From: Anaerolineales bacterium
GTDB taxonomy: Bacteria; Chloroflexota; Anaerolineae; Anaerolineales; Villigracilaceae
DNA length: 64,000 nucleotides
NCBI GenBank assembly: GCA_030583885.1
Contig: CP129480.1
Location: forward strand, 620,001 to 684,000
Direction: 5' to 3'
Part shown: one piece after another, positions 1,968 through 45,996 of the stretch
How positions within the stretch are numbered: the first letter of the stretch is position 1
Layout of the letters: each line of letters begins with the position of its first letter
Program-made: the position numbers and the translations under genes
The notes under the pieces: generated by a model
The model's input: the letters and a program-made list of their open reading frames with translations, nothing else
Told to the model about the DNA's origin: nothing
Database searches by the model: none

Positions 1968-2739
1968 AATTTATCTTGACAAATTTGCAAGGGGGGGGGT
2001 ATATTGAGATTGTCATTGCAAAATTCACAAACTGAAACGGGAAGGATATAATGGGAAATAATCCAGGATCCATCCAAAGAATCATCCGTTTTGCATGCGC
2101 CGGCCTGCTGTTGGCTGTTTTCATCAGCACTATTACTCTGCCTTCGCAGCCAGGGGAAAGTGTATCTGCGATGAAGCTGTTACAAGCAGGCGATACAGCC
2201 ACGCCCACAGCGACCCTGGAAAATACGCCCACCTCCACTGCCACTCCCACGCGCACCCCGACCCTGATCAGCGGGGTGTTGACCTGTAACACGGTTGCAA
2301 CAGGTGTAACCTGCACCAATTATGGCACCTATCTCAAGTACGACATTAATATCAATGTGACAGGCCTGCCCGGCGGCGCCACGGCTTCGAACATTTTCAT
2401 TGGCAAGTATAAGCGCAGCACCAACGGCGGCTGGATGGGCATGATGTCGAATTTTATTCATGCCGAGACCTCGATCCATCAAAGTAACAAGGTGTTTTCG
2501 ATGGTGAGGATCTCGCCGTTCGATGCGGCGGCGGTGGATTACGCCTCCTTTACGAGCGGCGCGGGCACGAATGTATATGTCATTAACAGCGTGAATCACT
2601 GGCGTTATATTGCAGGCACCGGGAATTATCCGAACACGCTTTCGGTGCGGGGTAATGCGGATTACGCCATCACGGGTTACTCGGTGGTTGGCAGCATCTA
2701 TCTGTACAGCAATCAGGCCTTTGTGACCGTGACGCCGAC
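1968..2739 (+). repeat. Conserved promoter plus N-terminal module, copy 1
   Basis: This stretch is nearly identical to those at 35694-36481, 38046-38839 and 41290-42078. It covers the promoter, a roughly 50-nt leader with a GGAAGGA ribosome site, the signal segment, the first Thr/Pro linker and the conserved exported domain. Similarity stops within the codons for T-V-T-P-T. Copy 1 lacks the glycoside-hydrolase tail fragment found upstream of the other three. Confidence 0.85.
1976..2005 (+). promoter_or_regulatory. Predicted promoter with G9 tract in the spacer (solitary cassette)
   Basis: TTGACA (1976-1981) and TATATT (2000-2005) are separated by 18 nt, of which the last nine (1991-1999) are all G. 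The same -10, downstream leader and ribosome site recur before the three tandem paralogues. A homopolymer in this position would change promoter spacing if its length changed. Promoter activity is predicted only. Confidence 0.6.
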
Positions 2740-3295
2740 TGCGACCAGAACCCCTACCCGCACGGCAACTTCAACAGCTATAACGTTTACGCCTAGGAGT
2801 AATAGTAGTGGAATTTGTTGGTCAAGCGGCCCATCTTGGCCTAGCTATAGTGTGCCATATAGAATCGACACAAGCATTCCAACATCTTGGATAAGTTCAA
2901 TAAACAATGCGGCGAATACATGGACAAATGCCACTCCAAGCCCGTTTAGCTTTGTGAATTCACCGCAAACATCATATACGATCAGTCTGGGCTATATTGA
3001 AAACTATGGTGTGCCAGCTTATACAGGGTTAGTTTACATAGGGGCGACTCTTACCGACGTCTATACTGTATTTAATGACCAGAGAACGTTTGACACTAGC
3101 AATCCACCCGCGGCTTCAACTTTCAATATTCAGAATCTAATGACACATGAGTTTGGACATTGGCTTTTGCTAAATGATATTTACGATATAAACTGTAGTC
3201 ATGTAACTATGTATGGCGGCATATCTACCGGCGAAACTAACAAAATCAGCTTGGAGACCGCGGATAAAGAAGCCATCAATTGGCAATACCCATAG
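2051..3295 (+). CDS. Modular exported protein, conserved N-module with metalloprotease-like C-terminus
   Basis: The 414-residue product has a hydrophobic signal/anchor segment (about 10-40), a Thr/Pro-rich linker, the family's conserved domain (about 75-228), a second Thr/Pro linker, and a unique C-terminal domain. The latter carries HEFGHWLLLND (366-376), a zinc-binding HExxHxxxxxD arrangement, followed by a possible Met-turn in CSHVTMYG. This resembles metzincin peptidases whose third ligand is Asp, such as the snapalysin type, but the rest is not clearly alignable. It probably acts outside the membrane. The start is fixed by GGAAGGA. A partner gene follows after 55 bp. The C-terminal part looks more AT-rich than the N-module, suggesting separate origins. 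Confidence 0.82.
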   Translation: MGNNPGSIQRIIRFACAGLLLAVFISTITLPSQPGESVSAMKLLQAGDTATPTATLENTPTSTATPTRTPTLISGVLTCNTVATGVTCTNYGTYLKYDININVTGLPGGATASNIFIGKYKRSTNGGWMGMMSNFIHAETSIHQSNKVFSMVRISPFDAAAVDYASFTSGAGTNVYVINSVNHWRYIAGTGNYPNTLSVRGNADYAITGYSVVGSIYLYSNQAFVTVTPTATRTPTRTATSTAITFTPRSNSSGICWSSGPSWPSYSVPYRIDTSIPTSWISSINNAANTWTNATPSPFSFVNSPQTSYTISLGYIENYGVPAYTGLVYIGATLTDVYTVFNDQRTFDTSNPPAASTFNIQNLMTHEFGHWLLLNDIYDINCSHVTMYGGISTGETNKISLETADKEAINWQYP

Positions 3296-3350
3296 AGCCT
3301 ATTTGCAGAAATTCGTATCGCAAAGATAGCTTACCAAGGATAAATAATAG

Positions 3351-4049
3351 ATGAACAAGAAAACTCTGTTCCTGATGGTCGCCCTCATCGTAATTCCGAT
3401 CCTCATCTACGTGATGGGACCGAAAAAGGATAAGCAAGAACCAATTACTATCATATCTCACGCCTCGTATGTTACGATGTCGATTGACGAGCTCGTAACT
3501 GAGTCTGACTTGATTGTGATTGGTTATGTGAATACTATATATGCCAGCCGCTGGAATACTCCTAATGGGAGACGGCCGGAGGGCGATCCGGCGCAGAAAA
3601 TCACGCCTGACATGACCATCTTTACAGATATGGATTTTAATATTACCCAACTCATAAAAGGTGATATCCAACAAAAAAACGCTCGCATCCGCTCTCTTGG
3701 CGGTGTAGTGGATGGAGACCGAATGATTGCGGATAAGATCATTCCCAAAATGAACAAAACCTATTTGCTTTTCCTCGATTTTGGCAGAGCGGGCTCAACA
3801 GCCAACGTTGTTACTGACCATTACTGGATAACAGGTGGTGGATTTCAGGGTCTGTATGAGATTATAGATGACAGGGCAATTTCAGTAAGTGATGAGTGGG
3901 CTCTTAAAGACCTGATAGCCTACATCCAAAAATCACTTTCCGAATCTGATTCATCCCAAATTACGCCAACTGCTGTTCCCACCATTACATTAACTGAACC
4001 ATCTCCATCTATTACAGCTTCACCAGAAACGACTACCCCCACGCCGTAG
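3351..4049 (+). CDS. Exported partner protein of the metalloprotease-tailed paralogue
   Basis: The 232-residue product has an N-terminal hydrophobic segment (about 4-22) that may be an anchor or uncleaved signal, a globular domain, and a Thr/Pro/Ser-rich C-terminal tail. It is homologous to the protein at 40429-41127, also 232 residues: both share S-[IV]-D-[EQ]-x-V-x-E-S-D-L-[IV]-V near residue 50 and a Y-[LI]-L-F-L motif near residue 140. I do not recognise an enzyme. An AAGGA site precedes the ATG, and the gene lies 55 bp behind the paralogue. Location and pairing suggest an exported inhibitor, chaperone or accessory factor; this is inference. Confidence 0.75.
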   Translation: MNKKTLFLMVALIVIPILIYVMGPKKDKQEPITIISHASYVTMSIDELVTESDLIVIGYVNTIYASRWNTPNGRRPEGDPAQKITPDMTIFTDMDFNITQLIKGDIQQKNARIRSLGGVVDGDRMIADKIIPKMNKTYLLFLDFGRAGSTANVVTDHYWITGGGFQGLYEIIDDRAISVSDEWALKDLIAYIQKSLSESDSSQITPTAVPTITLTEPSPSITASPETTTPTP

Positions 4050-35575: not shown

Positions 35576-35603
35576 CTCACAATTCGTATTCTGATTCAAA
35601 ACC

Positions 35604-35690
35604 TCACATCTCCACGATGCAAGCCGCCTCGTCCTTCACGATGGCGCTTTCCCCGTTCATAAACGTAATCGTCGTCTGTGCCTTACCGCT
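35604..35690 (-). pseudogene. GH 3'-end fragment, unit 1 of the array
   Basis: Read on the minus strand it encodes QTTITFMNGESAIVKDEAAC and then IVEM plus a TGA stop, matching the last codons of the hydrolase at 43455-45833. Differences are mostly synonymous. The upstream part of the gene is missing and the homology breaks off before the family promoter. Confidence 0.8.
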
Positions 35691-35693
35691 GCA

Positions 35694-36481
35694 AATTTGG
35701 ACTATTATCACCCGTATTTGTCTTTACAAATCGTACGAGGGGGGGGGTATATTGAGATTGTCATTGCAAAATTCACAAACTGAAACGGGAAGGATATAAT
35801 GGAAAACAATCCAGGAGCCATCCAAAGAATCATCCGTTTTGCATGCGCCGGCCTGCTGCTGGCTGTTTTCATCAGCGTTATTATTTTTCCTTCACCGCCG
35901 GAACAAACCGCCTCCGCCATGAGTTCATTGGATGAAGGCGATACAGCCACGCCCACGGCAACTTTGGAAAATACGCCCACCTCAACTGCCACTCCCACGC
36001 GCACCCTGATCAGCGGGGTATTGACCTGTAACACGGTCGCAACAGGTGTGACCTGCACCAATTATGGCACCTATCTCAAGTACGACATTAATATCAATGT
36101 GACGGGCCTGACCGGCGGCGCCACGGCTTCGAACATTTTTATTGGCACGTACAAGCGCAGCACCAACGGCGGCTGGATGGGCATGATGTCGAATTTTATT
36201 CATGCTGAGACCTCGATCCATCAAAATAACAAGGTGTTTTCGATGGTGAGGATCAGTCCGTTCGATGCGGCGGCGGTGGATTACGCCTCCTTTACGAGCG
36301 GCGCGGGCACGAATGTATATGTCATTAACAGCGTGAATCACTGGCGCTATATTGCAGGCACTGGGAATTATCCGAACACGCTTTCGGTGCGGGGCAATGC
36401 GGATTACGCGATCACGGGCTATTCGGTGATTGGCAGCATCTACCTGTACAGCAACCAGGCCTTTGTGACCGTGACGCCGAC
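35694..36481 (+). repeat. Conserved promoter plus N-terminal module, copy 2
   Basis: Nearly identical over its whole length to copy 4 (41290-42078), including the gap in the first Thr/Pro linker (the PTP before LISG seen in copies 1 and 3 is missing). Similarity to all copies ends at the codons for T-V-T-P-T. Confidence 0.85.
35723..35753 (+). promoter_or_regulatory. Predicted G-tract promoter, tandem copy 2
   Basis: TTTACA (35723-35728) and TATATT (35748-35753) are separated by 19 nt ending in G9 (35739-35747). Confidence 0.6.
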
Positions 36482-37076
36482 ATTAACGCCTTCACGCACC
36501 CCGACAAGGACGCCAACCTCAACGCCTACAAATACCCCAGCGCCTAGCTGGCATCTCGGTAATTTTCGCCCAGATGCTTATGGTGTAAGGGCAAATATAT
36601 CAGCACCTGACCAAGCTCCCTCTCTCCAAGATAGCGGCGAGTCTAATTGGGTATCTTTGCCTATGTCATATTGGGTTCAATCAGGATGGCGATATTATAA
36701 GGGCTGGATATGGGCATGGAGTTATGTTGAATCTTTCAGCCCAACTACAGGCTATGAAATTATAGAGTACTCAATACATGGTTGGGGAAATATCATAGAG
36801 TATAAAGTGGATTGGGCAGGTGGCACAACCTGGTGTGGGTGGATTCATGGGGTCAACAAGGCTTGCTACTCTGCTCAACTAGCGCCAATAACCGTTTCGG
36901 CGCGTTCCGAAGTACATGTAAGTTCACAGAATGAATTAGATACTTATTTTTGGAATGTGTTTTATAAAGACGCAAATGGTATTTGGTACATGTTTGATCA
37001 GGATCTGTGGCAAGAAAACCCGCCATATGTTATAGACAAGGATCAATATTACCAGTTCCATATATATGGCCCGTAA
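35799..37076 (+). CDS. Modular exported protein with neprosin-like C-terminus (first version)
   Basis: The 425-residue product has the family signal/anchor (ending near SPPEQTASAM), the Thr/Pro linker, the conserved domain to residue 227, a second Thr/Pro linker, and a unique C-terminal domain (about 249-425). The latter contains YGVRANISAP, SGESNWVS, YWVQSGWRYY and a final ARSEVHVSSQNELDT segment; it is homologous to the C-terminus of the next copy and has a faint likeness to neprosin-type beta-sandwich domains. I see no certain catalytic residues. A partner gene starts 13 bp after the stop, indicating coupled translation. Confidence 0.82.
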   Translation: MENNPGAIQRIIRFACAGLLLAVFISVIIFPSPPEQTASAMSSLDEGDTATPTATLENTPTSTATPTRTLISGVLTCNTVATGVTCTNYGTYLKYDININVTGLTGGATASNIFIGTYKRSTNGGWMGMMSNFIHAETSIHQNNKVFSMVRISPFDAAAVDYASFTSGAGTNVYVINSVNHWRYIAGTGNYPNTLSVRGNADYAITGYSVIGSIYLYSNQAFVTVTPTLTPSRTPTRTPTSTPTNTPAPSWHLGNFRPDAYGVRANISAPDQAPSLQDSGESNWVSLPMSYWVQSGWRYYKGWIWAWSYVESFSPTTGYEIIEYSIHGWGNIIEYKVDWAGGTTWCGWIHGVNKACYSAQLAPITVSARSEVHVSSQNELDTYFWNVFYKDANGIWYMFDQDLWQENPPYVIDKDQYYQFHIYGP

Positions 37077-37089
37077 TTTTGGAGGCGCA

Positions 37090-37839
37090 ATGAAACAGAA
37101 AAAGTCGATTTCAAAAACGTTCCTGCTCTTGATTTTAATCACGATTGTCTTCTCAATATATACGCAAGTTGGAGCACAGGAAGAATTAGTGAAATATTTG
37201 GAAGAGAGGCTAGAGCTGCAAAAAGTCCCCGTTGTTGAAATAATTGCTCTTCGAAAATTCCCTGTTAGCCTTCAAGTTGTGATTCAAAGCACGAGTGATG
37301 GAGAAAGGGCTTCTCCTGAGGATCCCATAAACATTAATTTGGTCAATCATGAAGTTGCAATGGCAACCCGTCATGGTTATTTTGTTGAGCGATATATTAT
37401 TGTGCTGTTAAATAATAGAGCAGAACCTATGGCACAAGTAGAACATACGATAAATATTGATGGGCTATTTGTTGACAATAGCCCATCAAATCTCACTGAT
37501 GAAGCAACCGCGAATTTGGTGCTGGTCAGGATGAATCTCCATGGAATGTCTTTGACAGGCTTAGATGTCTTATCCTCAAATGGCATTCAAACAGCAAACA
37601 TACTCTTATCTGCTCCGTCTATTGATGCAGCCAATCAAGCTTTACCCGAATTCATGCCTGCAGTGCGTTTGTTATTGGAAGATGTGAATGCTCGGGGTGC
37701 GCAGATTACAATTTGCAGGATAGAGTTGAGAGACGCGAATGAAGATATCCTTCTTAACTACATATTGGATTTACAGTTGCGTGCTGAAAATTGGTGGATG
37801 GCAGATAATTTAACAAAAGACTGGTTTCCACATCCGTGA
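37090..37839 (+). CDS. Exported partner protein of copy 2
   Basis: The ATG after GGAGGCGCA gives 249 residues; the longer frame would start inside the previous gene without a ribosome site. A signal segment (about 8-25, ending near VGAQ) predicts export. The mature part has short strand/helix units and ends in AENWWMADNLTKDWFPHP. It is homologous along its length to the partner of copy 3 (39477-40268): compare LVKYLEERLELQKVPVVEI with LVEYLKNKLGQLGVPVNQI. No enzyme motif. The gene looks markedly AT-rich next to the upstream module. Confidence 0.75.
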   Translation: MKQKKSISKTFLLLILITIVFSIYTQVGAQEELVKYLEERLELQKVPVVEIIALRKFPVSLQVVIQSTSDGERASPEDPININLVNHEVAMATRHGYFVERYIIVLLNNRAEPMAQVEHTINIDGLFVDNSPSNLTDEATANLVLVRMNLHGMSLTGLDVLSSNGIQTANILLSAPSIDAANQALPEFMPAVRLLLEDVNARGAQITICRIELRDANEDILLNYILDLQLRAENWWMADNLTKDWFPHP

Positions 37840-37906: not shown

Positions 37907-37933
37907 AAGCATCCTACAAAACGCGGGATGCTT
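37907..37933 (-). terminator. Hairpin after array unit 1
   Basis: AAGCATCC and GGATGCTT are separated by 11 nt. The sequence resembles the hairpin behind the resident GH gene (43404-43433) and appears to have been duplicated with its tail. Confidence 0.65.
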
Positions 37934-37955
37934 GTATAAATTAAACAATTAAACT

Positions 37956-38042
37956 TCACATCTCCACGATGCAAGCCGCCTCGTCCTTCACGATGGCGCT
38001 TTCCCCGTTCATAAACGTAATCGTCGTCTGTGCCTTACCGCT
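37956..38042 (-). pseudogene. GH 3'-end fragment, unit 2 of the array
   Basis: Sequence is essentially the same as the unit 1 fragment: a minus-strand frame ending IVEM and TGA, matching the end of the hydrolase at 43455. It lies directly upstream of the third family promoter. Confidence 0.8.
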
Positions 38043-38045
38043 GCA

Positions 38046-38839
38046 AATTTGGACTATTATCACCCGTATTTGTCTTTACAAATCGTACGAGGGGGGGGGT
38101 ATATTGAGATTGTCATTGCAAAATTCACAAACTGAAACGGGAAGGATATAATGGAAAACAATCCAGGAGCCATCCAAAGAATCATCCGTTTTGCATGCGC
38201 CGGCCTGCTGTTGGCTGTTTTCATCAGCGTTATTATTTTTCCCTCACCGCCGGAGCAAACCGCCTCTGCCATGAATTCATTGGATGAAGGCGATACAGCC
38301 ACTCCCACAGCGACCCTGGAAAATACGCCCACCTTCACTGCCACTCCCACGCGCACCCCGACCCTGATCAGCGGGGTGTTGACCTGTAACACGGTTGCAA
38401 CAGGTGTGACCTGCACAAATTATGGCACCTATCTCAAGTACGACATTAATATCAATGTGACAGGCCTGACCGGCGGCGCCACGGCTTCGAATATCTTCAT
38501 TGGCACGTACAAGCGCAGCACCAACGGCGGCTGGATGGGCATGATGTCCAATTTTATTCATGCTGAGACCTCGATCCATCAAAGTAACAAGGTGTTTTCG
38601 ATGGTGAGGATCTCGCCGTTCGACGCGGCGGCGGTGGATTACGCCTCCTTTACCAGCGGCGCGGGCACGAATGTATATGTGATTAACAGCGTGAATCACT
38701 GGCGTTATATTGCAGGCACCGGGAATTATCCGAACACGCTTTCGGTGCGGGGCAATGTGGATTATCCCATCACGGGCTATTCGGTGATTGGCAGCATCTA
38801 CCTGTACAGCAACCAGGCTTTTGTAACCGTGACGCCGAC
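38046..38839 (+). repeat. Conserved promoter plus N-terminal module, copy 3
   Basis: Differs from copies 2 and 4 at scattered positions and, like copy 1, keeps the PTP before LISG in the first linker. The promoter side is like copy 2 while parts of the coding module are like copy 1, giving a mosaic appearance that suggests recombination between copies. Confidence 0.82.
38075..38105 (+). promoter_or_regulatory. Predicted G-tract promoter, tandem copy 3
   Basis: TTTACA (38075-38080) and TATATT (38100-38105) are separated by 19 nt ending in G9 (38091-38099). Confidence 0.6.
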
Positions 38840-39464
38840 CTCTTCACCAACATTGACACCCACCAACACGGTAACTTCTACACCGTCTCCCACACCAACA
38901 CAACAAGATCGATGGTATACCGGAAATAGCCGTGGCTCTGTATATGGCGTGAAGGCAAACATATCCGCTCCGGCGACAGCGCCCATGCTCATTACAAGCG
39001 GAGAGTCCAGCTATGTAACTACCGCTACCACGCATTGGATACAAACTGGCTGGCGTCACTATAAAGATAATACGCCAAACTGGCCTTATACCTTGCCTAT
39101 GCAATATGTTGAGATTAACCCACCTGCTGGCTACATCCCTATTGTTCACTACGGTTCTCAAAACTGGGGTGAAGTTGTAGAGTATAAGATAACTTGGTCC
39201 AGTAGTCTCCAGCAATGGTGCGCCCATATTAATGGCGACTTCAAAGCCTGTGAAGACCTGGGGTTCTCACCGCCAACTTATGTTCATGCTCACTCAGAAG
39301 TTCACGTTAGCCCGCAAAATGAGTTGAGTACTACCTTTCTTGATGTTAGTTATTTGGATAGTAATAGTGTCTGGCACCTGTTTAATCTTGAGCTATGGCG
39401 CGAAGACGCGCCATACCGAGTCAATAAATTCTATAATTATGAATATTATAATTATGGACCCTAG
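38151..39464 (+). CDS. Modular exported protein with neprosin-like C-terminus (second version)
   Basis: The 437-residue product shares the conserved N-module with its paralogues, then a linker (SSPTLTPTNTVTSTPSPTPT) and a C-terminal domain (about 256-437). That domain is homologous to the one in the preceding copy but clearly diverged: YGVKANISAP, SGESSYVT, HWIQTGWRHY, WGEVVEYKITW and AHSEVHVSPQNELST line up. The N-modules of the two genes are almost identical while these domains are not, so they have different histories. The partner starts 12 bp later behind GGAGG. Confidence 0.82.
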   Translation: MENNPGAIQRIIRFACAGLLLAVFISVIIFPSPPEQTASAMNSLDEGDTATPTATLENTPTFTATPTRTPTLISGVLTCNTVATGVTCTNYGTYLKYDININVTGLTGGATASNIFIGTYKRSTNGGWMGMMSNFIHAETSIHQSNKVFSMVRISPFDAAAVDYASFTSGAGTNVYVINSVNHWRYIAGTGNYPNTLSVRGNVDYPITGYSVIGSIYLYSNQAFVTVTPTSSPTLTPTNTVTSTPSPTPTQQDRWYTGNSRGSVYGVKANISAPATAPMLITSGESSYVTTATTHWIQTGWRHYKDNTPNWPYTLPMQYVEINPPAGYIPIVHYGSQNWGEVVEYKITWSSSLQQWCAHINGDFKACEDLGFSPPTYVHAHSEVHVSPQNELSTTFLDVSYLDSNSVWHLFNLELWREDAPYRVNKFYNYEYYNYGP

Positions 39465-39476
39465 TCGGAGGTATAC

Positions 39477-40268
39477 ATGAAGCGCAAAAAACTTCTTTTT
39501 GGAGTTGCTTTGTTTTTTGTGGTGATATTAACTTTAAGCCTTTCCGCTCAGACAAAAGCAGAAAGATTGAAGGTTCCAGTTAATCAGCAAGAGAGTCTTG
39601 TAGAGTATTTGAAAAACAAACTCGGTCAACTAGGTGTCCCTGTGAATCAAATTGTTGTTCTCCAAGATAGCCCACTGGAAATTGAGGTGACTATTCAGAG
39701 TTTGAGTACAAATGAGAAGTTTGCGCCCGACGATTTTGTAAATATACATATGGTTGTTCGAGAATCTGTATTTGCCAGCGACAAAGGATATCCAATTAAT
39801 GGATTAACTAAAATTGTTGTAAATATGGAAGGAAAGCAAATTAACAAAGGTTGGATTAAGATCGAGCCAGAATCAATGTATCGCAGGCTTGCTCCATCCC
39901 AGCTTACAGAAACTTCTACTGCGAATCTATTGAACAAGAAATTAGCGGAATATGGAATGTCAAAAGTTAATGGGAAAATAATAGCATTGGATGAATCTCA
40001 GGCTCTGGATTTATATTTGCCGAACTTATCAAAGGAGGAAACGAATCTGACAATGCTATCGATAAAGGATTCCCTGGGCATTCTTAGTGAGGATATGAAT
40101 TCGCAGGGGGCTGGTATATCCTTTGTAAAATTAAGAATAACGAACGAAGGCGGTGAAACTCTCCTCAATTTTTTATCGGATTGGCAATTTTCAACAGAAG
40201 GTTGGTGGGTTGCGGATGGGATCAATATTGACTCTTGGCGACCTTCTATTCCTGCGCCTGTGCCTTAA
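39477..40268 (+). CDS. Exported partner protein of copy 3
   Basis: The 263-residue protein has a clear signal segment (KLLFGVALFFVVILTLSLSAQ) and is homologous to the partner of copy 2, ending EGWWVADGINIDSW like AENWWMADNLTKDW. The divergence between the two partners looks comparable to that between their cognate C-terminal domains, as expected if each pair evolved together. GGAGG precedes the ATG. Function unknown; extracytoplasmic inhibitor or accessory factor are the main possibilities. Confidence 0.75.
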   Translation: MKRKKLLFGVALFFVVILTLSLSAQTKAERLKVPVNQQESLVEYLKNKLGQLGVPVNQIVVLQDSPLEIEVTIQSLSTNEKFAPDDFVNIHMVVRESVFASDKGYPINGLTKIVVNMEGKQINKGWIKIEPESMYRRLAPSQLTETSTANLLNKKLAEYGMSKVNGKIIALDESQALDLYLPNLSKEETNLTMLSIKDSLGILSEDMNSQGAGISFVKLRITNEGGETLLNFLSDWQFSTEGWWVADGINIDSWRPSIPAPVP

Positions 40269-40428
40269 CAAAGAACTTTTGGACTTAACCACTACCTGCT
40301 TATCACTCCTCCAAATCTATAATCCAACAATAATTGCAGGATGACTGTGCGAGATTAGCGCAAGGCGCGCAAAGCCTTTAATTTGCGGCTGGATGTGCTA
40401 ACGATAAATAATTTTGGAGGATGTCGCA

Positions 40429-41127
40429 ATGAACAAATCAAAACTCAAAATAAGCGTGTCATTAATAGGTGCGCTTGTTATAACAGTATTTTGGCTGGGT
40501 CAAGGTAATAACGAGAAATTCAGTGCTTTACCAACAGAAACTAATCCTGCAAATCTTCCTTCAAACGATTATTCTGTAGCGACTTGGGTCTCTAACGCAA
40601 TGTCAGTGGACCAGGTTGTATTGGAATCTGATCTTGTTGTTAAGGCGCGGGTCTCTGAAGCGCCCGTTTCTCGTGTAGTGCGCGCTGAACTCCCCGTATG
40701 GGATGAGAATGGTAATATAGTAGGCTCGGCAATAGATGAGATGGTTTTCTCTGATACTGTTTTTGAAGTATTAGACACTTACATAGGCAAATCATCATTG
40801 GAAATTGTAGTTATGCAAACCGGTGGTTTTGAACCATCTATATCGACTGGTGTTATGCAAATGGCGGATGATCCTCTCTATAACCTTGGAGAGGAGTATA
40901 TCTTGTTCTTGAATGATATTTCCGGCGATCGCGTACATGCGCGAGATCGTATGCTTTATATCACGGTGAATCCATTTGGCCGTTATAGAATTGATGGCGA
41001 GAATGTCTTCTCGTATGGTCAAAACTTGATTTCGCACGGCCAATTCTCGCAATTGGTTCAACTCCCGGTAAATATTATCGAACTCGAAGCGCAAATTAAG
41101 CAGGCTGAACAAAAACTCAATAATTAA
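40429..41127 (+). CDS. Orphan exported partner-type protein
   Basis: The ATG after GGAGGATGTCGCA gives 232 residues, exactly the length of the homologous partner of the metalloprotease-tailed gene (3351-4049). Shared features are the N-terminal hydrophobic segment, S-V-D-Q-V-V-L-E-S-D-L-V-V, a central G-G motif and EEYILFLND. In this place it follows the partner of copy 3 rather than a metalloprotease gene, so it looks like what remains of a fourth tandem unit whose effector was lost, or like a captured partner. A 160-bp gap without a gene lies upstream. Confidence 0.75.
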   Translation: MNKSKLKISVSLIGALVITVFWLGQGNNEKFSALPTETNPANLPSNDYSVATWVSNAMSVDQVVLESDLVVKARVSEAPVSRVVRAELPVWDENGNIVGSAIDEMVFSDTVFEVLDTYIGKSSLEIVVMQTGGFEPSISTGVMQMADDPLYNLGEEYILFLNDISGDRVHARDRMLYITVNPFGRYRIDGENVFSYGQNLISHGQFSQLVQLPVNIIELEAQIKQAEQKLNN

Positions 41128-41199
41128 TAGCCTAACACCGTTGCCCATACCCTAGAAGAGTAATCTTCCAAGAGTATCAATTAACGGCAATTCAAAACC

Positions 41200-41285
41200 T
41201 CACATCTCCACCATACAAGCCGCCTCGTCCTTCACGATGGCGCTTTCCCCGTTCATGAAAGTAACCGTGGTCTGCTCCAGGCCGC
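41200..41285 (-). pseudogene. GH 3'-end fragment, unit 3 of the array
   Basis: Minus-strand codons read GLEQTTVTFMNGESAIVKDE, then AACMVEM and TGA. This fragment is closer to the resident hydrolase end than the other two: GLEQ and V are kept and two of the codon changes in TVT are synonymous. Homology stops at the codons before GLEQ. Confidence 0.8.
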
Positions 41286-41289
41286 ATCG

Positions 41290-42078
41290 ATTTTGGACTA
41301 TTATCACCCGAATTTGTCTTTACAAATTGTACGGGGGGGGGGGTATATTGAGATTGTCGTTGCAAAATTCACAAACTGAAACGGGAAGGATATAATGGGA
41401 AACAATCCAGGATCCATCCAAAGAATCATCCGTTTTGCATGCGCCGGCCTGCTGCTGGCTGTTTTCATCAGCGTTATTATTTTTCCTTCACCGCCGGAAC
41501 AAACCGCCTCCGCCATGAGTTCATTGGATGAAGGCGATACAGCCACGCCCACGGCAACTTTGGAAAATACGCCCACCTCAACTGCCACTCCCACGCGCAC
41601 CCTGATCAGCGGGGTATTGACCTGTAACACGGTCGCAACAGGTGTGACCTGCACCAATTATGGCACCTATCTCAAGTACGACATTAATATCAATGTGACG
41701 GGCCTGACCGGCGGCGCCACGGCTTCGAACATTTTTATTGGCACGTACAAGCGCAGCACCAACGGCGGCTGGATGGGCATGATGTCGAATTTTATTCATG
41801 CTGAGACCTCGATCCATCAAAATAACAAGGTGTTTTCGATGGTGAGGATCAGTCCGTTCGATGCGGCGGCGGTGGATTACGCCTCCTTTACGAGCGGCGC
41901 GGGCACGAATGTATATGTGATTAACAGCGTGAATCACTGGCGCTATATTGCAGGCACTGGGAATTATCCGAACACGCTTTCGGTGCGGGGCAATGCGGAT
42001 TACGCGATCACGGGCTATTCGGTGATTGGCAGCATCTACCTGTACAGCAACCAGGCTTTTGTGACCGTGACGCCGACC
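41290..42078 (+). repeat. Conserved promoter plus N-terminal module, copy 4
   Basis: Nearly identical to copy 2 in the coding module, but the first codons (MGNNPGS) are like copy 1 (MGNNPGS) rather than copy 2 (MENNPGA). Similarity ends at the same T-V-T-P-T codons. Confidence 0.85.
41319..41349 (+). promoter_or_regulatory. Predicted G-tract promoter, tandem copy 4 (G11)
   Basis: TTTACA (41319-41324) and TATATT (41344-41349) are again 19 nt apart. Here the tract is G11 (41333-41343). Alignment with copies 2 and 3 shows that an A to G change extended the tract, not an added base. Confidence 0.6.
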
Positions 42079-42678
42079 CCATCCGCCAGTGCGACGGCAA
42101 CAGCCACTTCAGTACCCACATTGACGCCACCGCCCTCAAATGGATACAACCGTCCCGCCGCTGTTGCTTACGCCGACCTTTGGGCACATGATCGAAATGA
42201 AGATTATCCAAACTATGGGATCGACTCTGATGGAGAGCAGTGTAATGATTGCACTAACTATATTTCACAGATTTTAGAGGCAGGCGGCATCCCCCAAATA
42301 CCGGGAGATAATGATGAATTTCACTGGTATACATATCAGAATATTTGGGGGACTTGGTTTGGGTCTAAGTCTTGGGCTGCTACTGACTGGTTTAATATGC
42401 ATGTTTCTCAATTTCAAACAACGCGATATGAATATTACCCAGATGGACCATCAGGTTTGAGCGCCGGGGATTTCTTTTTGATGGACTTGCCCACTAATCC
42501 TTTTCAAGGGCCGGATCACTCTCGAATAATAGTTGGGTATGGAGAAGTTCTTGAAGGGGATAATTTGGGAGAGATAATGTTGCTAGCAAGCCAGCATTGT
42601 GTAGACAGAAAAAGAGTTCGATGGGACTACAATTTACCTCAAAATGTCCTGCTATGGGCATGGCATGTCGTATATTAA
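41395..42678 (+). CDS. Modular exported protein with Amidase_6-like C-terminus
   Basis: The 427-residue product has the shared N-module, a Thr/Pro linker and a C-terminal domain (about 247-427) beginning YNRPAAVAYADLWAHDRNEDYPNYG. This start, the NDCTNYISQILEAGG segment with the putative nucleophile Cys286 and GPDHSRIIVGYG with His375 match the putative amidase domain family PF12671 (Amidase_6), a papain-like cysteine fold. Cell-wall peptide or other amide bonds outside the cell are plausible targets. The partner begins 22 bp after the stop. Expression would depend on the G11 promoter. Confidence 0.85.
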   Translation: MGNNPGSIQRIIRFACAGLLLAVFISVIIFPSPPEQTASAMSSLDEGDTATPTATLENTPTSTATPTRTLISGVLTCNTVATGVTCTNYGTYLKYDININVTGLTGGATASNIFIGTYKRSTNGGWMGMMSNFIHAETSIHQNNKVFSMVRISPFDAAAVDYASFTSGAGTNVYVINSVNHWRYIAGTGNYPNTLSVRGNADYAITGYSVIGSIYLYSNQAFVTVTPTPSASATATATSVPTLTPPPSNGYNRPAAVAYADLWAHDRNEDYPNYGIDSDGEQCNDCTNYISQILEAGGIPQIPGDNDEFHWYTYQNIWGTWFGSKSWAATDWFNMHVSQFQTTRYEYYPDGPSGLSAGDFFLMDLPTNPFQGPDHSRIIVGYGEVLEGDNLGEIMLLASQHCVDRKRVRWDYNLPQNVLLWAWHVVY

Positions 42679-42700
42679 CTGGTGTTACATAGGAGTGAAA

Positions 42701-43333
42701 ATGACAGAAAAAAACAAAACCTTCATGCTCATTATTGCGATACTGCTTGTGGGTGTTGTATTCATATTTATTCGAACAAAAAATGCACGGGCAAATTCTG
42801 GCATTCCCGATACACCTGACACACGGCAGATTGTAGCGGTAATGAACAGATCATATGAACTCATGGCGCATGCTTCCCAGACCTTTGATGTCTCTGAATT
42901 CCCCTCAGTTTTCATTGACACAAAAGACTATAAGTTAACCGATCAACAACGGGATGCAATAGTTTCTATTCTTGGCCTAGAAGCAGTAGAACCGGGCAAT
43001 ACAGGTTATTTAACTGCAATGCAAGCTCAATATATATCAATGGGACAGGGAGCAAAATTGTTAGAAAAAGCCCTTGATAGAGCAAAATTAGAAAACAGGA
43101 ATCTAACATCAGAAGAGTTTCAGGAAATATTAAAGGCCAATCATGGTCGAGCACCTGTTTTAGGCAACACAATTAATTCCAAAACTGAACTAACCTTTAT
43201 CTCAATTGATATTAATGGGGATAAGGCAATTGTCCGATATGATGATGGCGCAGCGCTTCAAGAGGCAATATTAGTTAAGGAAAAAGAACACTGGCTTATA
43301 GCATCGATAATACCAGTTTGGATACATTTTTAG
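42701..43333 (+). CDS. Exported partner protein of copy 4
   Basis: The ATG after AGGAGTG gives 210 residues. An N-terminal hydrophobic segment (about 7-23) followed by RTKNARANS suggests a signal anchor or signal peptide. The C-terminal 50 residues (TELTFISIDINGDKAIVRYDDGAALQEAILVKEKEHWLIASI) look like the beta-sheet of an NTF2-like or DUF-type exported domain. It shows no similarity to the other partners, in agreement with the unrelated C-terminal domain of its upstream gene. Confidence 0.72.
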   Translation: MTEKNKTFMLIIAILLVGVVFIFIRTKNARANSGIPDTPDTRQIVAVMNRSYELMAHASQTFDVSEFPSVFIDTKDYKLTDQQRDAIVSILGLEAVEPGNTGYLTAMQAQYISMGQGAKLLEKALDRAKLENRNLTSEEFQEILKANHGRAPVLGNTINSKTELTFISIDINGDKAIVRYDDGAALQEAILVKEKEHWLIASIIPVWIHF

Positions 43334-43403: not shown

Positions 43404-43433
43404 ACAGCATCCTGTGCGTTTCGGGATGCTTGT
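43404..43433 (-). terminator. Terminator hairpin of the GH gene
   Basis: AGCATCC and GGATGCT are separated by 11 nt downstream of the minus-strand hydrolase. Copies of this arrangement sit at the same distance from the GH-tail fragments in two array units. Confidence 0.6.
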
Positions 43434-43454
43434 ACCATTTAAGCCAATTCAACT

Positions 43455-45833
43455 TTACATCTCCACAATACAAGCCGTCTCGTCCTTCACGATGGCGCTT
43501 TCCCCGTTCATGAAGGTGACCGTGGTCTGTTCCAGGCCGCGCGTGATGGTGAGTCCCTTGTACTTGATCGTCACAGGCCAGGGAAATAGATTTTTACCCT
43601 CCAGCTTCACCCGCGTGGACGAAAGGATCGTCACGCCCAGCGCCTGCATGAACAAACCGACCGGCGCAAAGCCTGTGAGCGCATTGCGCTCGCCGAGGCC
43701 GGTCCCTTTTTCAGCGTGATAACGCTGGTAGAACGCGCGGTTCTGTTTCAGGTTTTGGATGACCGCGTTCATCAAATGCGCGGTCAGGCGTGCGGCTTCG
43801 GCGCGGAATCCGTACGCGAGCAAACCCTCCGCGATCAATGTGTTCCAGGGCAGGCTTACGCTCATTGAAACGGATTCAGCCTGCGGGTCCGGCGAGAGCG
43901 GAAGCGACGGCAATCCAAAAGGCCGGTCGAAGCGTTCGGCGGTCATCAGGTTGCGTCCAACCAGCGCGTAGGCCTTTTGCTTTTCAAGCACTCCGGCCCA
44001 CAGCGGCAGGGCCAGTGTAATGTCCTCGCCCGTCGTGTCAATGATCTTCACGTTGATCCTGTCCTTTTCATCCAGCCCCGTCACCCGCACGCGCCCGACG
44101 CGTGTGAAGACCTTTTGAGTAGCCGTCACCAGCCCGCCCGTGCGCCATTGGAATTGATGGCCCAAAATCGTTTCGACCTCGCCCTTGGATTTGGTGAAGT
44201 ATTCGCTGATCTCCACTTCAGGCCGCTTCGCAGCCGGACTTTTGGTCTGGATCTCCACCAGCAGGCGGACCGGCGTCCCGGACTCGAACTTCGGACGCAT
44301 GTTCCCATCGCCTTTATGTTTGGCGATCACCCTGCCTGTCGAGACCAGCCCTGTTTCGCGGTCGCGATATGAATAAAAACTTGTGCGCGGATTCCAGCCC
44401 GCCTCGATGGAGGCTTTGACGGTTTCCGCCTGTGAGCGGATCAATGCGGTCTCTTCTTCGGGCTTGCCAAGTTCTTCAGCGATCCTGGCGAGGGTCTGCG
44501 CTTCGCGATACAGCATGGCTTCCAGCGCCGGACTGTGCATAAGTGTAATATCCAGCCCCTGCGACCAGGGATTCCAAACATCGAAGAGCGGATTATCTTC
44601 AAAGCCGCTTTGCAGGACGTGGTCCCATTCAGGTGCGCCGTCGCGGTTTCTGTCATGCGCGCCGGAGAACCACGACCAGAAGAATTTAATTAATTTTGGG
44701 AAGACCTCCGCCAAAAATTCCTCGTCCTGCGTGGTCTGGAAATATTTCCATGCGAGGCTGGCGAGCAGGGGTGCGGCGATCAACTTGCCGCGTTGACCGG
44801 CCAGCCCGGGCTGGCCGTCCACCTCGCCGTCTTCATCCTGCGTGGAAAGGAAATTGAGCAGGAGATCCTTGGTCACCTGCGGCGTACCATGCAAAATGCT
44901 GGAGAGGTAATACGTCTCCAGCGGGAATTGCCCATTCCACGAGGGATGGTAATCCGTGCCGTCGCCTTTGCGTGAGAACCCATTGTCCATGTGGCGGGCG
45001 TTGACAAAGGATGGATTGGGCAGATGGTCTCCCCCGCCGAAGAACAATCCATGCGCGGCCTTCTGGCTGAAGGCCAGCGCGGCGTCCCATTCCATGTCAC
45101 CGGTGCGGATGTCCAGCACCTGCGAGGCATCCAGCATTTCGATGCGGGCGAGTTCAGCCTGCCAGGCGCGGGCGGCGGTTTTGCGGGCAAGGTTGAACGC
45201 CTCGGGGATGGTATCGAGGGCGGCTTCGGCGAAGGACAATGTGCGTGTGGCACCGGGGCCGAGTTCGAGGTCCAGCATGAGCGAGGGATGGGCCCCGGCG
45301 CCGTGCCTGGGACCTCCCGTCATGAAGATGACGGGAGCGATCCCGCTGGTCTGGCCGGCAAGGATGTTGACAAGCTGCTGTTGGGTGGGGATGATGGACT
45401 GCCCGTCCAATGGCGCGAGCACGGCGCAGACTTCGAGTTGAATCTGGCGCACAGCGTTGCTTTTATTGGTGAGTGTTACGCGTCCGGCGATCGCATGGGA
45501 TTCGGGGACCCAAAAATCAGTGGTGACTTGTAGATTTTCGAGGGGAACAAAATCGAGGGTCAGGAAGTTTGGGTAGTACCGCCGCAGTGATGGTTTGGCG
45601 GCGAATGCCTTTGGGTCTGCAACCGTGGTGCTGCCTTCGGTGAAGCGTAAAAAAATACGCATCGAACGCGCACGCAGACCAAAGGTTGTATATAAGGATA
45701 TGGCGGCCGGCTCTGCCGCGCCCAGTTCCACTTCCCAAATATGATCGTTGACGTAGTCGGGCGTGCATAGACGGGCGTCCGCTGCCAAAGTCAGGTAGAG
45801 CGGGTCGCCGAGGGTTAATGACCAGTCGCGCAT
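43455..45833 (-). CDS. GH63/MGH-like glycoside hydrolase
   Basis: From MRDWSLTLGDPLYL the protein has 792 residues; the frame further upstream is repeat-like noncoding sequence. An N-terminal beta-sandwich is followed by an alpha/alpha-barrel with HPSWNGQFPLETYY, DEDGEVDGQPG, DRNRDGAPEWDHVLQSGFEDNPLFD and WNPRTSFYSYRD, resembling the MGH1-like/GH63 barrel. Relatives include glucosylglycerate and mannosylglycerate hydrolases, which would fit with the GpgS-like gene at 27231, but the substrate is not proven. No signal peptide, so it is cytoplasmic. No good ribosome site precedes the ATG. Its 3' end is the source type of the fragments in the array. Confidence 0.82.
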   Translation of the reverse strand: MRDWSLTLGDPLYLTLAADARLCTPDYVNDHIWEVELGAAEPAAISLYTTFGLRARSMRIFLRFTEGSTTVADPKAFAAKPSLRRYYPNFLTLDFVPLENLQVTTDFWVPESHAIAGRVTLTNKSNAVRQIQLEVCAVLAPLDGQSIIPTQQQLVNILAGQTSGIAPVIFMTGGPRHGAGAHPSLMLDLELGPGATRTLSFAEAALDTIPEAFNLARKTAARAWQAELARIEMLDASQVLDIRTGDMEWDAALAFSQKAAHGLFFGGGDHLPNPSFVNARHMDNGFSRKGDGTDYHPSWNGQFPLETYYLSSILHGTPQVTKDLLLNFLSTQDEDGEVDGQPGLAGQRGKLIAAPLLASLAWKYFQTTQDEEFLAEVFPKLIKFFWSWFSGAHDRNRDGAPEWDHVLQSGFEDNPLFDVWNPWSQGLDITLMHSPALEAMLYREAQTLARIAEELGKPEEETALIRSQAETVKASIEAGWNPRTSFYSYRDRETGLVSTGRVIAKHKGDGNMRPKFESGTPVRLLVEIQTKSPAAKRPEVEISEYFTKSKGEVETILGHQFQWRTGGLVTATQKVFTRVGRVRVTGLDEKDRINVKIIDTTGEDITLALPLWAGVLEKQKAYALVGRNLMTAERFDRPFGLPSLPLSPDPQAESVSMSVSLPWNTLIAEGLLAYGFRAEAARLTAHLMNAVIQNLKQNRAFYQRYHAEKGTGLGERNALTGFAPVGLFMQALGVTILSSTRVKLEGKNLFPWPVTIKYKGLTITRGLEQTTVTFMNGESAIVKDETACIVEM

Positions 45834-45996
45834 GGGGGGTATTGTACGGGCAGAACCTCGGAAGGTCAAACGGGTATAATCCTGAATACGTCTTATTGGC
45901 CTGACAGGTTTGAATGGTCCGACAGGTCGGGCAGTTTTGACCATTTCGACTTGTAAGACCTGCAAGACTCTTTAGACCACGAAAGAGGAGAGAGAC

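Follow-up and report, generated by a model that had tools for sequence, protein, structure and literature searches.

Why should four related genes in one bacterial genome each carry a pure run of guanines between the −35 and −10 elements of their promoters? The question is raised by a 64,000-nt stretch of contig CP129480.1 from an Anaerolineales bacterium of the phylum Chloroflexota (hereafter, the window). An earlier note on this DNA had proposed that the tracts switch the promoters on and off by slipped-strand errors, in the manner of Neisseria surface-protein genes. In Neisseria, the porA (poly-G) and fetA (poly-C) promoters have a homopolymer in the −35/−10 spacer, and the length of the tract varies between strains (PMC5320596). 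In Treponema pallidum, tp0126 has a poly-G spacer promoter, with expression optimal at a total spacing of 17 nt (PMC7864442). Here, the window promoters were compared with one another, with the rest of their genome, and with promoters of related and unrelated bacteria.

Poly-G tracts and the genes behind them

Re-reading of the window sequence bore out the tract positions, promoter elements, and spacers of 18 or 19 nt given in the earlier note. All four promoters are on the plus strand, and their runs are G9, G9, G9, and G11. In the copy 1 promoter (1976–2005), TTGACA (1976–1981) is followed by 9 nt, G9 (1991–1999), and TATATT (2000–2005), giving a spacer of 18. The promoters of copies 2 (35723–35753) and 3 (38075–38105) each consist of TTTACA, 10 nt, G9 (35739–35747 and 38091–38099, respectively), and TATATT, and that of copy 4 (41319–41349) consists of TTTACA, 8 nt, G11 (41333–41343), and TATATT; the spacer is 19 in all three. 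A pure homopolymer of at least ~7 nt between the −35 and −10 elements, the hallmark of porA/fetA/tp0126-type promoters, is therefore present at every one of them. No other promoter in the window was said to have such a tract, and the four are indeed its sole G or C runs of ≥7 nt. Matches to G9 in the window number six, compared to a mean of 0.9 in dinucleotide shuffles, none of 100 of which reached six. The complete genome (4.40 Mb, one contig) holds 11 separate G or C runs of ≥9 nt, including the four window tracts, and a genome search with an 18-base pattern (the run plus TATATTGAGA) matched these four only.

Two other runs in this genome deserve mention. A C12 run (G000:C1:1552524-1552535, L034), with TAGACA-T before it and T-TATATT after it, lies ~180 nt upstream of an exported-protein gene and is possibly a further spacer tract with C in place of G. 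The longest run of the genome, a G15 (G000:C1:2525381-2525395, L039), adjoins a terminator-like inverted repeat.

The four proteins have ~225 N-terminal residues in common, comprising a signal-peptide-like start and a conserved module (N-module), followed by a threonine-proline (TPT) linker and divergent C-termini; all genes and partners named here are on the plus strand. Copy 1 (2051–3295) ends in a matrixin-like metallopeptidase domain (HEFGHWLLLND) that matches PF00413 with E=1.6e-4, just short of the curated cut-off, and is followed by a partner gene (3351–4049) cognate to the metallopeptidase-type gene. Copy 2 (35799–37076) has a C-terminal domain of another type and a cognate partner at 37066–37839. 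Copy 3 (38151–39464), with a C-terminal domain like that of copy 2, is followed by a paralogue of the copy 2 partner (39477–40268) and by a second gene (40414–41127) distantly related to 3351–4049. Copy 4 (41395–42678) has an Amidase_6 C-terminus (PF12671, E=1.4e-20) and a partner at 42644–43333. An AlphaFold model of the copy 2 protein, built with 6 sequences, had a pLDDT of 28.6, and a search of genome_contigs for relatives of the N-module found none.

The pairing of C-terminal type with downstream gene extends beyond the window. A metallopeptidase-type gene followed by a relative of 3351–4049 was also found in three other species (G028, G010, and G261), and a gene of the copy 2/3 type followed by a relative of 37066/39477 was found in G052 and G046, so that in five other species (L367–L372), whose N-modules differ, the downstream gene can be told from the C-terminal type. 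The window genes are thus predicted to encode modular exported proteins with cognate partners, and the exported nature of the products, claimed earlier, was upheld by signal peptides seen by inspection and by the domains found. As gene groups, 2051–4049, 35799–37839, 38151–41127, and 41395–43333 resemble an effector with its cognate partner (enzyme/inhibitor or toxin/immunity-like).

Duplication history of the four copies

Copies 2, 3, and 4 have ~890 bp in common at 93–97% identity, including ~140 bp upstream, and the homology of copy 1 to the others begins at the −35 element. Being duplicates, the four promoters represent one or two events, and their use as independent evidence for the arrangement was rejected. 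The difference between G11 and G9 was likewise rejected as a trace of slippage: the G11 of copy 4 equals the GA plus G9 of copies 2 and 3 after one A-to-G substitution, and the spacer stays at 19. Relative to copy 2, the other two copies have 13 and 21 substitutions per 401 bp with unchanged spacer length. Copies 2–4 therefore show no slippage difference among themselves.

A repeat of ~112 bp (35600–35682, 37924–38034, 41174–41285, and 43422–43540), which lies upstream of copies 2–4 and matches the 3′ end of a glycosidase-like gene (43455–45965, minus strand), marks the duplicated unit. The N-module occurs a fifth time (74% identity) at G000:C1:2070991-2071473 (L005), inside a 3151-residue open frame, and no G run of ≥7 nt was found in the 3.5 kb around it.

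Recurrence in related genomes

Related genomes were searched with the pattern TTGACA-N4..12-G7-N0..4-TANNNT, with the reversed pattern as a control. In the genus, 13 of 57 genomes contained a match, at 19 places in all, compared to none for the control; ~64 places versus 8 control matches were found in 400 genomes of the order, and ~36 versus 3 in 400 genomes of the phylum. These other genomes give independent support for the poly-G spacer motif. Most sites in related genomes are located ~40–60 nt upstream of a start codon with a ribosome-binding site. A scan of viral_contigs gave 3 G matches and 0 C matches, too few for spacer statistics.

The arrangement has a pronounced strand and position bias. 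When C7 replaced G7 in the search of the same 400 order genomes, 21 places matched (18 of them exactly C7) against about a dozen control matches, and 44 genomes of the genus yielded 17 G places versus 0 C places. Among runs of ≥9 nt in the order sample, 29 are of G versus 2 of C. The G run directly abuts the −10 element in 38 of the 64 places, whereas C runs are scattered.

In the genus, the motif precedes genes for exported TPT-linker proteins and for LuxR-type regulators. The same two classes recur across the family, where the regulators include response regulators and stand-alone helix-turn-helix (HTH) proteins of 70–87 residues; GerE domains were confirmed in sampled regulator proteins. 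Of 41 family promoters, roughly 36 lie before the gene of an exported protein (~20) or a LuxR-type regulator (~16), leaving 5 others, although many of these targets are orthologous, so that the tally is not one of independent events. Signal peptides by inspection, domains, and GerE matches thus agree in placing the promoters before exported or surface products or their regulators.

Not every G run before a TAnnnT in the genus is of this kind. Treating all genus G8-TAnnnT sites as one class was rejected, because the sites include several CsoR-like operators and some matches due to chance. CsoR-like genes in the genus (L178, L181, L183, and L188) are preceded by CCCCCCTGGGGGGGG-type palindromes, which are easily confused with poly-G promoters and are probably metal-sensor operators. 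These likewise place a G run and then TAnnnT upstream of a gene; in contrast to the window tracts, they pair the G run with a matching C run and precede CsoR-like genes. No C arm, and hence no such inverted repeat, was found at the window promoters.

Variation of tract length and spacer length

Length changes were sought in assemblies from one genome per species, in which homopolymer lengths may be sequencing errors. In a 442-bp alignment of a response-regulator promoter from G011 and G053, 10 substitutions separate the near-identical alleles, and their sole indel is G8 versus G10, a difference between species and not between strains. Two paralogues within G058 have the same 6-nt lead (AATCAC) followed by G10 and G12, giving spacers of 16 and 18. 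Orthologous regulator promoters retrieved without requiring a G run had runs of 7, 8, 9, 10, and 12; in G157 the run is interrupted (GGGGGAGG), and in G329, G108:C42, and G780 an ordinary spacer separates recognisable −35 and −10 elements. The existence of orthologous promoters lacking the run means that it is optional, being gained and lost as the promoter remains. Within the family, the length of the lead shows no correlation with that of the run (Spearman −0.03); with no such compensation, the spacer is not kept at a constant length. Gain and loss of the run, together with the lack of this correlation, favour a mutable tract over a fixed operator.

A wider scan (TTGACA-N5..10-G9-TATANT, one genome per species, covering spacers of 14–19) returned at least 119 stretches, of which many belong to gut Clostridia and Bacilli; the matches listed also include Treponema, Streptobacillus, Helicobacter, and Saccharibacteria. 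For 80 loci among the matches listed, 57 of 75 downstream proteins have a signal- or TM-like start by a crude test. Loci L206–L285 place poly-G spacer promoters before exported proteins commonly in gut Clostridia and Bacilli, with spacers that avoid 17 bp among the matches listed.

A spacer of 17 bp is optimal for promoters. Among the matches listed with TTGACA, an exact TATAAT, and G≥9, spacers of 15, 16, 17, 18, and 19 occurred 9, 13, 1, 14, and 23 times, respectively, whereas promoters lacking a G run in that DNA are most often spaced at 17 (Fisher p ~5e-5, in an analysis devised after the data were seen and on a pattern-limited sample of the matches listed). The dip at 17 persists among these listed matches after grouping by protein similarity. 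One homologous pair (L210/L236) has the lead aagtgcc in common, followed by G9 in one and G11 in the other, with spacers of 16 and 18. A spacer of 17 is rare in the family of the window organism as well (1 of 34), where the choice of −10 element is ambiguous. Because 17 is the optimum, the assembled alleles lie mostly off it, as expected for switches that are usually found in a weak state.

Discussion

The poly-G arrangement is, in our judgment, a real feature that is conserved for a reason, and its promoters are probably best read as slippage-variable, that is, phase-variable. The G runs would be contingency tracts in the −35/−10 spacers of otherwise ordinary sigma-70-type promoters. Replication slippage would add or remove G's and so alter the spacer (18 or 19 in the window alleles, with the optimum at 17), and with the spacer the promoter would pass from a weak state to a strong one or back. 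The set of exported modular hydrolases made would then vary from cell to cell, as would that of LuxR-type regulators in related species. The position and purity of the tracts, their recurrence, the length change between close alleles, the class of target, and the optional presence can be read from the DNA itself; slippage within a population, transcription from these promoters, expression that depends on tract length, and adaptive value would be expected to go with them. The switching proposed in the earlier note thus gains from tract lengths that vary between alleles of related species and between paralogues of one genome, from the optional tract, from the exported and regulatory targets, and from the avoidance of 17 in the wider sample, but the window copies, which do not differ by slippage, speak against it.

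Other explanations were weighed against the same observations. The run might be an operator at which a LuxR/NarL-type regulator binds beside the −10 element, with the regulators' own genes carrying it for autoregulation. This would account for the restriction of G to the non-template strand beside the −10 element and for the abundance of LuxR-type HTH genes, from several lineages, among the family targets (~16 of 41, compared to an expected 2–3% or so, an estimate from candidate counts). However, a site of fixed length is not what orthologous promoters retain: the run ranges from 7 to 12 nt, which alters helical phase, and it is absent or interrupted in several regulator promoters. Moreover, the genome of the window and several relatives have G-run exported genes, and no G-run regulator was found in them. 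Such an operator is considered unlikely. Strand and position specificity would equally suit a fixed architectural element, in which stiff, A-like DNA makes a promoter weak or supercoiling-sensitive with no switching involved; the stable spacer among the window copies agrees with this, and off-optimum spacers could merely tune promoter strength. Yet a mutable pure homopolymer would not be needed for such a role, lengths vary between close alleles, and orthologues have ordinary spacers in its place, making this explanation quite improbable. The duplicate nature of the four window copies would suit tracts that were passively carried along by gene duplication and have no effect, but the arrangement is found again in other phyla and before genes that are not homologous, where the controls hardly ever match, and this possibility is strongly disfavoured.

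For slippage-variable promoters, comparison with known systems is instructive. The Neisseria analogy drawn earlier is apt insofar as the window tracts, like those of porA and fetA, lie in a sigma-70-type spacer before exported-protein genes, and a poly-G spacer is also found at tp0126 (and tprL) of T. pallidum. In every feature that can be checked from sequence, the window tracts appear to be of the porA/fetA/tp0126 kind. Unlike in Neisseria, where both G and C are used, the genus examined here uses G only, almost always abutting the −10 element; the lineage differs, and regulators are also among the targets. T. pallidum is a host-restricted pathogen with experimental data on tp0126, whereas the window tracts are read from sequence. 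The chief difficulty for the slippage reading is the use of G only and the anchoring beside the −10 element, since slippage by itself predicts neither: C would serve as well, and so would other positions. Either DNA properties specific to one strand also matter close to the −10 element, or the arrangement was inherited and spread.

A broader proposal is offered tentatively, as a possibility about which we are doubtful: poly-G spacers may constitute a dedicated, widespread promoter class for exported proteins and regulators, with non-template G anchored to the −10 element and a common allele kept 1–2 bases away from the 17-bp optimum, from which an occasional slip would give a very strong promoter (built-in bet hedging), including in lineages not known as pathogens. 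The scarcity of 17-bp spacers in unrelated bacteria may serve as a simple genome-wide signature for locating such switches.

Most known slippage-switched promoters are those of host-bound pathogens, and in the literature collection searched no paper was found on phase variation with Chloroflexi or Chloroflexota as its subject. The same device across a family of probably environmental lineage, preceding secreted hydrolase modules and LuxR-type regulators, would be an unexpected setting. If this reading is true, clonal cells of such bacteria would vary in their secreted products.
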